Shown: positions 53,658 through 63,655 of the stretch, piece by piece | How positions within the stretch are numbered: position 1 is the first letter of the stretch | How the letters are laid out: each line of letters starts with the position of its first letter | Source of the DNA: Byssothecium circinans | Taxonomy: Eukaryota; Ascomycota; Dothideomycetes; Pleosporales; Massarinaceae | Assembly (NCBI GenBank): GCA_010015675.1 | Contig: ML976987.1 | Location: 536,790-600,789, forward strand | Direction of reading: 5' to 3' | Length of the DNA: 64,000 nucleotides | Position numbers and translations under genes: made by a program | Notes under the pieces: model-generated | Databases searched by the model: none | Seen by the model: only the letters and a program-made list of their open reading frames with translations | What the model was told of the DNA's origin: nothing

Positions 53658-53694
53658 GCCCGGTTAGCTCAATCGGTAGAGCGTGAGACTCTTA

Positions 53695-53726
53695 GGTTTC
53701 ACTTTCTCAGAAAGCGATTGTTCGGC
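53695..53726 (+). other. Canonical anticodon-loop tRNA intron (32 nt)
   Basis: It lies one base 3' of the CTT anticodon, between positions 37 and 38, where the tRNA splicing endonuclease cuts in eukaryotes. Its removal restores the 7-nt loop CTCTTAA. Confidence 0.9.
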
Positions 53727-53741
53727 ATCTCAAGGTTGCGG

Positions 53742-53790
53742 GTTAGTCTCATCCACTTCGAAACGTAAAATCACTTCTAACCCTCCTCAG
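53742..53790 (+). other. 49-nt T-arm insertion with spliceosomal-intron features
   Basis: Starts GTTAGT, has a TTCTAAC branch-like motif 10 bases before the end, and ends CCTCCTCAG, the signals of a fungal GT-AG intron. The last G supplies the first G of the B box, and GGTT occurs at both edges (53741-53744, 53790-53793). GGGTTAG (53740-53746) can also pair with CTAACCC (53777-53783). Excision at GT and AG restores the T stem GCGGG/CCCGC exactly. Confidence 0.75.
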
Positions 53791-53818
53791 GTTCGACCCC
53801 CGCATCGGGCTTTACATC

Positions 53819-53826
53819 TTTTTTTT
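53819..53826 (+). terminator. RNA polymerase III terminator
   Basis: A run of eight T begins seven bases after the tRNA 3' end. Confidence 0.85.
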
Positions 53827-54254: not shown

Positions 54255-55897
54255 ATGTCAGAAATTGATGAGCATGATGGCTCACGCAAGAGGAGAAAGC
54301 TATCCCCGCCAGAAGCCGCCCTTCTACCAGTGACAACCACTTCGCGCATCAAGGCCAAGAACCCAAGCTGGTCGACTACGGTAACACCACCATCCGGGGT
54401 GCCTTCAGTGCCTGATACAACTTCCGAAAAGACGACGTTTGCTTCGATTGGTGTGGCCCCTTGGCTCGTTTCTTCTTTAGCGTCTATGGAGATAAGGAAG
54501 CCGACCAGCATTCAGAAGTCGACTATTCCTGAGATCTTGAGAGGAAGAGATTGTATTGGTGGCTCACGTACGGGAACGGGCAAGACCGTGGCTTTCTCGG
54601 TGCCGATTCTCCAGAAATGGTCAGAAGACCCATGTGGTATCTTCGGCGTGGTCAGTCTTTTTCACATCAAACGAAACAGCTTCAAACTGACCTTATCTTA
54701 GATTGTAACGTTAGTATTGCTTGTGCAGAGTATTAACAGGAGGGGTACTGACTGTTGTGCAGGCCGACAAGAGAGCTAGCCATTCAGATCTATGAGCAGG
54801 TCAAAGCCATCGGCTCACGACAGTCCATCAAAGCTATTCTTATCACAGGTGGCGCCGATCAGCAAGAGCAAGCGTTGCAGCTTGGTTCACGGCCTCACAT
54901 GGTCATCGCCACTCCAGGACGGCTGGCAGAGCATATCAGGACTTCCGGCGAAGACACAGTCTGTGGTCTACGACGCGTGCGATTCGTCGTCTTTGATGAA
55001 GCTGATCGCTTACTATCGCCCGAAGCTGGCATGCTACCCGATCTAGAGACCTGCTTGTCGATACTCCCCAAACCTGATCAACGCCAGACGCTTCTATTCA
55101 CTGCTACTGTCACACCGGAAGTACTGGCTCTGAAAGAACGGCCGCGCCCTGCTGCAAAGCCCCCTATATTCGTCTGCGAGGTCGATACACAGATGCCCGC
55201 CATTCCCAGAACCCTACATCAAACATTTCTCCAGACACCCGTCACCCACAAGGAGTGCTATCTGCACGTTCTGCTCGGTACACCAGGTGAGTTTTGCATG
55301 CCCGAATTTTGAAGTGCCATCTCAAGTATCTACTGCTAATTGCTGTCAGAAAATCTCAAGAAATCTGTCATCATCTTCTGCAATGGCAAGAAAACCGCTA
55401 CACTTCTCGAACATATGCTGCGTCTGCTCGAATGGCGCGTGACATCCCTCCACTCCGATCTCCCACATTCTGATCGACGCAACAACCTCGCACGCTTCCG
55501 TGCTCAAGCCGCGAAGATCCTAGTCGCCACCGACGTTGCAGCTCGAGGTCTCGACATTCCTGAGGTGGGATTAGTCATCAACTACGACATCCCGCGTGAC
55601 CCAGATGACTACATCCATCGTGTCGGTCGTACAGCTCGCGCCGGTCGCTCTGGTACGAGTGTGACGTTCGTAGGCCAACGTGACGTAAACCTCATTCATG
55701 CGATGGAGTCACGTGTAGGCTCAGAGATGGAAGAGTTCGAGGAAGAAGGCGTTAGCATCGAGGGAAGAGTGGTAAGGGACGCCCTGAAGCCCGTCACGGA
55801 GAAAAAGAGGGAGGCTATTCTGCAAATCGAAGAAGACAGGGATGTGCAAGGAAGGAGGAAGACCGGCATGAAAAGCTTGAAGAAGAAGCGTGCTTGA
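54255..55897 (+). CDS. DBP8: ATP-dependent RNA helicase Dbp8
   Basis: Four exons (54255-54650, 54702-54709, 54763-55286, 55350-55897) give 491 residues. DEAD-box motifs in order: Q motif ([15 protein letters not shown]), SRTGTGKT (I), PTREL (Ia), TPGR (Ib), VFDEAD (II), FTATVT in place of SAT (III), IIFCNGKK (IV), ARGLDIP (V), [11 protein letters not shown] (VI). The basic tail [10 protein letters not shown] and the TAT form of motif III fit Dbp8, a nucleolar helicase for 40S ribosome assembly. The second exon is only 8 nt: it supplies most of a VIVTPTREL junction, and without it the conserved motif Ia context is lost. Introns of 51, 53 and 63 bp have normal GT-AG ends and CTGAC- or CTAAT-like branches. 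An N-terminal SRKRRKL patch may be a nuclear localisation signal. Confidence 0.93.
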
Positions 55898-62239: not shown

Positions 62240-63655
62240 ATGGCTACCACAGTAGATAAGGTGAGTCGCAAAACCCGGTGCCATGATGAAGTGGAAGGCT
62301 AATTGTATTTGCGGGGCAGATCAGGGACATCGAGGCCGAAGTAAGACACGCCCACACGCGCCGCCTTTCGATGACTTACGCTGTTGTTTAGATGGCCAAG
62401 ACCCAGAAGAACAAGGCGACTTCCTTCCATTTGGGTACGAAGCCCCGAGCCAACCCTCATCAAGCCTCGTCGGCTCACACACAACAGGTCAATTGAAGGC
62501 GAAGCTTGCGAAGCTTAAGAGGGAACTACTCACGCCATCATCGAGCGGAGGTGGCGGCGGTGTAGGTTTTGATGTCGCCAGGACGGGTGTTGCTAGTGTG
62601 GGCTTCATAGGCTTCCCGTCGGTCGGCAAGAGTACGCTTATGAGCAAGCTGACGGGTCAACACTCCGAGGCTGCGGCATACGAGTTTACAACGGTACTGT
62701 AGACTCCTAAGGCATGGCTTACAGGTTCTGACAGCACCGTAGCTTACGACAGTGCCCGGTCAAGTCCAGTATAACGGCGCCAAGATCCAAATTCTCGATC
62801 TGCCAGGTATCATTCAGGGAGCCAAAGATGGCAAGGGTCGGGGTCGGCAAGTTATTGCCGTTGCAAAGACATGTCACTTGATCTTTATCGTTCTCGACGT
62901 GAACAAGCCGCTGACGGACAAGCGCATCATCGAGAACGAGTTGGAGGGCTTTGGTATCCGCATTAACAAGAGTCCGCCCAATATCGTGCTGAAGAAAAAA
63001 GACAAGGGCGGCATCAACATCACCGCAACTGTACCCCTCACACACATCGACCACGATGAGATCAAGGCCGTGTTGGGCGAGTACCGCATGGCAAACGCCG
63101 ACATTGCAATCCGATGCGACGCGACTGTGGACGATTTGATTGATGTCATAGAAGCGAAGAGTCGGAGCTATATTCCTGTCATTTACGCGCTCAACAAGAT
63201 CGACGCCATCACAATTGAGGAGCTGGACCTGCTTTATCGAATCCCGAACGCCTGCCCCATTAGTGCAGAACACGGTTGGAATATCGACGAATTACTCGAG
63301 CAGATGTGGGAGAAGCTCAATCTGGTCCGCGTCTACACCAAGCCAAAGGGCAAAATGCCTGATTACTCGGCTCCTGTCGTGCTCCGATCCACGGCTTGTA
63401 CGGTCGAGGACTTTGTAGGTTGCCCACACACAAACGATACGTCTCGCTAATCGGTCATGCAGTGCAACTCCATCCATAAGACCATTGTCGAGCAATTCCG
63501 GGTCGCGATCGTGTATGGCAAGTCTGTCAAACACCAGCCGCAACGCGTAGGCCTGTCCCACGAGCTGGCTGATGAGGATATCCGTGAGTCCTGGCTTTGT
63601 TGTTGGCTGGCTGCTCGCACTGACCGAATAACCAGTCACCATTATCAAGAGATAG
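62240..63655 (+). CDS. rbg1: Developmentally regulated GTP-binding protein DRG1/Rbg1
   Basis: Seven exons (62240-62260, 62320-62340, 62392-62434, 62488-62693, 62743-63414, 63463-63583, 63636-63655) give 367 residues, the family length. Motifs: [20 protein letters not shown] with [15 protein letters not shown] at the N terminus, [16 protein letters not shown] (G1), YEFTTLTTVPG (G2), [18 protein letters not shown] (G3), YALNKID (G4), SAEHGW (G5 region), and a C-terminal TGS-like domain ending ELADEDILTIIKR. Rbg1/DRG1 acts on the ribosome with its partner Tma46/DFRP1 to relieve stalled translation. The first three exons are only 21, 21 and 43 nt. Phases agree at all six introns (48-59 bp). Start MATTVDK is in an ACCATGG context. 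Confidence 0.95.

Follow-up and report, generated by a model that had tools for sequence, protein, structure and literature searches.

The 49-nt insertion in the T arm of a tRNA-Lys(CUU) gene within the window (the whole 64,000-nucleotide stretch of DNA that was analysed) is very probably a U2-type spliceosomal intron in a functional gene, one of at least 15 such genes in this genome. From the sequence, we infer that the insertion is cut out by the spliceosome and that the gene is transcribed by pol III. Three options had been offered in a first-pass annotation, namely processing of a pol III transcript by the spliceosome, cleavage at a new site by the tRNA endonuclease, and a newly broken gene. 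The first is now favoured, because the motifs match those of mRNA introns from the same genome, the insertions occupy nine sites, no strict bulge-helix-bulge (BHB) is formed and all Lys(CUU) genes found are interrupted; the other two are disfavoured.

The gene, chosen in the first pass for its motifs and thus not an unbiased pick, has the following parts in window coordinates.

53658-53811, + strand: tRNA-Lys(CUU) gene, contig copy C11, with two insertions, at 37/38 and 52/53
53658-53694, + strand: exon 1 (positions 1-37), with the acceptor 5' strand, the D arm and anticodon CTT
53665-53676, + strand: A box, within the D arm of exon 1
53695-53726, + strand: canonical 37/38 intron, 32 nt
53727-53741, + strand: exon 2 (positions 38-52)
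53742-53790, + strand: T-arm insertion at 52/53, 49 nt, read as a U2-type spliceosomal intron
53790-53800, + strand: B box, GGTTCGACCCC, its first letter being the last G of the T-arm intron
53791-53811, + strand: exon 3 (positions 53-73), with the rest of the T arm, the acceptor 3' strand and the discriminator
53819-53826, + strand: run of 8 T, a likely pol III terminator

Removal of the 32- and 49-nt pieces had been claimed to leave a flawless 73-nt tRNA, and this was borne out: the exons join and every stem pair of the cloverleaf is formed. The coordinates and motifs reported for the 49-nt piece also proved exact; it starts with GTTAGT, contains TTCTAAC with the branch A at 53780, 10 nt before the end, and ends in CAG. 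The 49-nt cut can be placed in five sliding registers, one of which is GT-AG, and an excision scan of the gene yielded six valid excisions, one of them unrelated to sliding. These features of the window insertion are not due to chance, since insertions ending in a like manner interrupt two more Lys(CUU) genes and 12 tRNA genes besides.

The unspliced window gene gave no ARAGORN match, with or without the intron option, and no Rfam match at the gathering score. Once only the 49 nt had been removed, ARAGORN with the intron option reported a tRNA-Lys(ctt) containing an intron of 32 nt. The exons of a DBP8-type DEAD-box helicase (window 54755-55897, + strand) start some 0.9 kb beyond the tRNA in its direction of transcription, the name resting on database matches for the first exon of that gene.

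Interrupted tRNA genes in the assembly

All comparisons were made within this genome, for which an assembly of 48.4 Mb in 109 contigs was searched. tRNA loci were collected by Rfam (at least 44 matches, with 63 of 1497 candidates scored) and by D-arm, T-arm and anticodon-arm patterns, a subset of the pattern matches being fetched. Among 135 distinct regions, 28 yield a strict tRNA without any excision. The remaining 107 were scanned by trying every 40-75-nt excision, blind to ends and splice motifs, and a strict tRNA was recovered in 15, of which 13 include a GT-AG or GC-AG register. The other two positives, L106 (a Glu gene according to ARAGORN) and L098 (one of a repeat family), have no such register. 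Only two to six excisions were valid in 11 of the 13 recovered genes. For Ser (166) and Arg(CCU) (37), the registers were so numerous that the excision test tells little about these two.

Together with His(GUG) C8 and Lys(UUU) C2, the 13 scan-recovered genes bring to at least 15 the number of tRNA genes with an extra insertion of 48-64 nt. The cloverleaf after excision is strict in 13 of the 15 and has one mismatched stem pair in each of the two added genes (His C8 as judged by eye). The set covers nine amino acids and nine sites, the outermost of which lie in the acceptor stem and the T loop; it is a pattern-chosen, non-random sample and not a census. None of the 15 extra insertions lies at the endonuclease-type 37/38 position. 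The insertion sites are as follows.

3/4: Thr(CGU), Pro(CGG)
4/5: Arg(ACG) (C12)
D loop: Arg(CCU) (C23)
25/26: Ile(AAU) (L136)
Variable arm: Ser(GCU)
50/51: Thr(UGU)
52/53: Lys(CUU) C11 and C4, His(GUG) C8, Asn(GUU) C7 and C63
57/58: Lys(CUU) C24 (L011), Lys(UUU) C2 (L137)
60/61: Gly(GCC) (C30)

The 15 insertions are not 15 independent events, since C11 and C4, and likewise the two Asn genes, probably share theirs by ancestry, and the insertions of the C24 and C2 Lys genes may also be of common ancestry. The pattern that detected both Asn genes starts with TAG before GTTC, so their intron ends are not independent evidence. The ends of the Arg(CCU) C23 insertion are ambiguous, since it may also be cut as a GT-AG intron, with a D loop of 11 nt as the result. 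The interrupted Ile(AAU) gene was observed to have no 37/38 intron; its paralogue L107 has one of 31 nt.

Left out of the 15 were L073 and L086 (inserts of more than 100 nt), a Cys locus (L100), L021, L024 and the repeat family with a tRNA-like head. The last comprises the dispersed repeats L051, L094, L095, L098, L118 and L119, in which the head has an A box and a T-arm-like end, and is possibly a tRNA-derived SINE. L086 (∼1300-1526) and L125 (∼460-680) are related to one another and have an intact T arm and acceptor 3' end, with the two candidate halves more than 100 nt apart; either these are tRNA genes containing multiple introns or a very long one, or they may be relics. L100 (286-460) resembles a tRNA-Cys(GCA) gene in which the T loop is shortened and 103 nt are inserted near 37/38.

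ARAGORN with the intron option missed nine of 13 interrupted genes and misnamed three, and the Rfam tRNA model matched seven of the 15, two of those only in part. After excision, 11 of 13 were named by ARAGORN as expected, Lys C24 being called Ser and Asn C63 Ala. Use of ARAGORN on excised sequences as a test was abandoned: four of five control dinucleotide pairs gave 25-38 distinct calls, against 54 for GT-AG. The program was thus too permissive to discriminate, and the strict cloverleaf model was used instead. Since both standard tools miss many of the interrupted genes, the same kind of gene may be hidden in other fungal genomes.

Splice motifs and insertion junctions

The ends of the insertions are GT-AG in 14 of 15 cases and, in the best reading, GC-AG in the other, so that AG is present in all. 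Every insertion has G at +5 and a YAG end, and 14 have T at +6. In 14 of 15 there is a CTRAY whose A lies 9-12 nt from the 3' end, the exception being Arg(ACG) C12, which has CTAAA instead. By comparison, 3000 dinucleotide shuffles in which the ends were kept gave a mean of 0.64 and a maximum of 4 insertions of 15 with CTRAY. The intron ends of Gly(GCC) C30 fall on GT and AG without any sliding. A chance estimate was made for seven insertions that were found by patterns without AG and are probably independent (L011, L018, L022, L026, L092, L101 and L136, with 2, 3, 5, 5, 4, 3 and 4 registers, respectively; Ser and Arg(CCU) were left out). The probability that all seven would include a GT-AG register is of the order of 1e-13 if equal base frequencies are assumed.

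The yardstick for mRNA introns was a single gene, RBG1, in which five introns were placed by homology and by the open frame obtained after splicing.

62341-62391: RBG1 intron
62435-62487: RBG1 intron
62694-62742: RBG1 intron
63415-63462: RBG1 intron
63584-63635: RBG1 intron

These introns of the window are 48-53 nt long and GT-AG, with CTNAY placing its A 10-13 nt from the end. One RBG1 exon has protein identity of 92-95% to Alternaria, Setomelanomma and Paraphaeosphaeria and of 91% to Botryosphaeria, which identifies the fungus as a member of the Dothideomycetes, probably close to Pleosporales. Measured against RBG1 alone, the insertions in tRNA genes resemble the normal introns of mRNA genes in this fungus.

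Cutting of the insertions by the tRNA splicing endonuclease at new, BHB-guided sites, as in red algae and archaea, was weighed against the structure of the junctions. BHB substrates are cleavable by eukaryotic endonucleases, according to the available portion of PMC4090602. In one register the Asn genes almost form a relaxed BHB (central 3/4, outer 4/4), and the window gene has a 7-bp GGGTTAG/CTAACCC stem. This stem, proposed in the first-pass annotation as an aid to a new endonuclease site, is indeed present in the predicted fold, but it is probably a by-product of the splice motifs, since GTTAG at the 5' splice site is the reverse complement of CTAAC at the branch site. No strict BHB was detected at the insertion junctions of any of the 15 genes; a 4-bp central helix was formed in no sliding register, three pairs being the maximum. 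The succession GT...CTRAC...AG is not called for by an endonuclease model. Moreover, some introns follow just 3 or 4 nt of exon, which would leave little mature body for the endonuclease ruler. Overall, endonuclease cleavage at new sites is considered very unlikely.

Cyanidioschyzon merolae and nucleomorphs resemble the present case in having D- and T-arm introns besides those at 37/38, as described in parts of PMC9602550 and PMC4090602. For the atypical C. merolae introns, however, a BHB and the endonuclease are held responsible in the latter source as far as available, whereas no strict BHB was found here. Guillardia nucleomorph insertions are given as 3-24 nt in the same excerpt (PMC4090602), in contrast to the 48-64 nt observed here with splice-site and branch motifs.

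Recent copying as a common origin of the introns found no support among the introns and loci compared. No near-identical copies were present among the 15 introns, the longest shared exact run in BLAST being 12 nt, and none was detected when 13 of the 15 were compared with the collected tRNA loci and the window. Introner-like elements of Dothideomycetes are an example of short spliceosomal intron gain in the same fungal class, but these are described in the accessible text of PMC4457414 as near-identical copies, unlike the 15 tRNA introns, which are not copies of one another.

Sequence conservation of the interrupted genes

A 30-nt pattern identified three Lys(CUU) genes in the genome, all with an extra insertion. 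The same three were returned by a near-identical pattern with up to three mismatches, and Lys-type D-arm variant patterns likewise led only to these. A count of the other Lys(CUU) genes had been proposed as a check on the window gene; with three in all, each interrupted, and no uninterrupted set found, the result argues against a single dead copy. C4 (L010) has its insertion at the same site as C11, with the same first 12 bases, CTAAC and CAG, and a largely different interior, and C24 has a 55-nt T-loop insertion between 57 and 58 (GTAAGT...CTAAC...TAG). The single Lys(UUU) gene found, C2, is likewise split at 57/58. Dedicated patterns thus gave three Lys(CUU), one Lys(UUU) and two Asn(GUU) genes, six of six interrupted. 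No uninterrupted Lys or Asn gene was detected in these searches, which would miss any gene whose D or anticodon arm has diverged, and none of 11 weaker Lys/Asn pattern matches was a tRNA by eye or ARAGORN. A 29-nt Lys pattern revealed no orthologue in viral and prokaryotic (non-fungal) genome collections.

The exons of C11 and C4 are identical at 73 of 73 positions. By contrast, their T-arm introns have drifted (29 of 52 aligned columns) with the splice motifs kept, and so have the flanks (27/60 upstream, 24/45 downstream). Given the shared site and first 12 bases, the intron was probably already in place when the gene duplicated, its exons being preserved in the interrupted state; alternatively, gene conversion between the two could account for their alike exons. 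The exons of Asn C7 and C63 are also identical and their introns different. Four stem pairs differ between Lys C24 and C11, three of them by double changes that preserve pairing (5-68, 7-66 and 50-64). Two of these lie in the acceptor stem and span both introns, and 50-64 spans the T-loop intron. Two further double changes that keep pairing distinguish the interrupted from the intact Ile gene. When the first 36 and last 36 nt were compared, the exons of Gly(GCC) C30 and Arg(ACG) C12 were identical to those of intact paralogues (three Gly genes and one Arg gene).

These observations bear on the possibility that the insertions have simply broken tRNA genes that are now dead, with intact copies elsewhere. 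Precedent exists: in the part of PMC4090602 available, short D- and T-arm insertions in eukaryotes other than algae and nucleomorphs usually affect a single gene among numerous synonymous ones, and such genes are taken to be pseudogenes. Intact paralogues of Gly(GCC), Arg(ACG), Ile(AAU) and His(GUG) are indeed present here, in searches that were non-exhaustive. Such decay is nevertheless hard to reconcile with the interruption of all six Lys and Asn genes found, with exons that are conserved while introns drift, with compensatory pairs and with the maintenance of splice motifs. We therefore consider dead genes a very unlikely explanation.

Pol III signals and predicted maturation

Pol III signals appear to be in place in the interrupted genes, as read from their sequences. 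All 15 have a run of at least four T no more than 45 nt downstream, and a B-box match (GWTCRANNC) was present in 14 of 15 unspliced genes, one B-box base being lost in Gly C30, which has no full match. A TATA-like hexamer was found upstream of nine of the 15, the upstream DNA being short at some loci. TTTT occurs in 0 of 13 introns, an avoidance of the pol III terminator that was not significant in shuffles (P 0.06).

In the 52/53 genes, the final G of the intron completes the longer B box. The earlier explanation that the B box stays intact because the insertion ends in G is therefore right for the window gene. In both 57/58 Lys genes (C24 and C2), the box is split by the intron, and the sole B-box match, GTTCGAATC, lies inside the intron. 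Only 25 of 55 aligned columns match between these two introns (L011 versus L137), yet GTTCGAATC is kept. The B-box match GTTCGAATCA, common to both 57/58 introns in otherwise diverged sequence, is a possible intron-borne promoter element. Thr(UGU) has an additional B-box match within its intron.

Spliceosomal splicing is normally tied to pol II, and this, with the incomplete B box of Gly C30, would suit a reading in which the introns are spliceosomal but pol II makes the tRNA precursors, or in which the introns are mainly regulatory RNA and not removable inserts. That reading is the least probable of those considered, given the nearby downstream T runs (15/15), the B boxes kept (14/15) and the spliceosomal introns of fungal U6, a pol III RNA, reported in the portion of PMC5832005 available.

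Under the preferred reading, splicing by the spliceosome of pol III transcripts, transcription would start from the A and B boxes, in many genes together with an upstream TATA-like site, and would stop at the T run. U1 and U2 snRNPs would recognise GTNNGT and CTRAC on the pol III transcript, and the ectopic intron would be removed by the spliceosome in the nucleus. Only after this excision would the pre-tRNA fold, RNase P and RNase Z then finishing the ends and the tRNA endonuclease and ligase removing the 37/38 intron where present. This order is predicted because the T arm or acceptor stem can form only after excision, which would place excision before end processing and 37/38 splicing. In fission yeast, U1 and U2 snRNPs act on the transcript of U6, which is made by pol III.

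Such a pathway suggests that the mRNA-splicing machine may be needed to make several essential tRNAs in this fungus. We lean, with less assurance, towards a broader reading in which the spliceosome would be an obligatory tRNA-maturation machine for all tRNA-Lys, tRNA-Asn and several other decoders, often acting before endonuclease splicing, with promoter letters supplied by the intron saving the B box. Introns that break the B box would then be tolerated because they give the missing letters, the final G at 52/53 and GTTCGAATC at 57/58.

mRNA-type introns also occur in ascomycete rRNA genes (Cubero 2000 and Bhattacharya 2000, as cited in the available part of PMC11889510). Those introns are, like the present ones, in structural RNA, but in rRNA, a product of pol I, and not in tRNA. 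Fungal U6 snRNA and U3 snoRNA genes, the latter including those of Dothideomycetes, similarly have mRNA-type introns in small structured non-coding RNA genes, and according to the accessible text of PMC5832005, no small structured RNAs other than U3 and U6 are known to be interrupted often by an intron. The case described here differs from U6 and U3 in that many nuclear tRNA genes are affected, at nine sites, including sites inside pol III promoter boxes. A literature search, thin on subscription journals and without bioRxiv preprints, turned up no description of such introns in genes for nuclear tRNAs, spliceosomal ones being meant, and in the portion available of a 2026 review eukaryotic tRNA splicing is described as spliceosome-independent (PMC13149111).

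If the transcripts are spliced as predicted, decoding of common codons would depend on the processing of pol III transcripts by the mRNA-splicing machine; the RBG1 reading frame contains AAG 26 times and AAA five times. These genes would then offer a natural test of whether the spliceosome needs coupling to pol II, and also of intron gain in essential genes and of the survival of pol III promoters after insertion.

The canonical 37/38 intron of the Lys(CUU) genes is identical in 30 of 32 columns between C11 and C4, in contrast to the drift of their flanks and T-arm intron. Judged by eye, C24 also contains a related core, and the 37/38 intron may be constrained.
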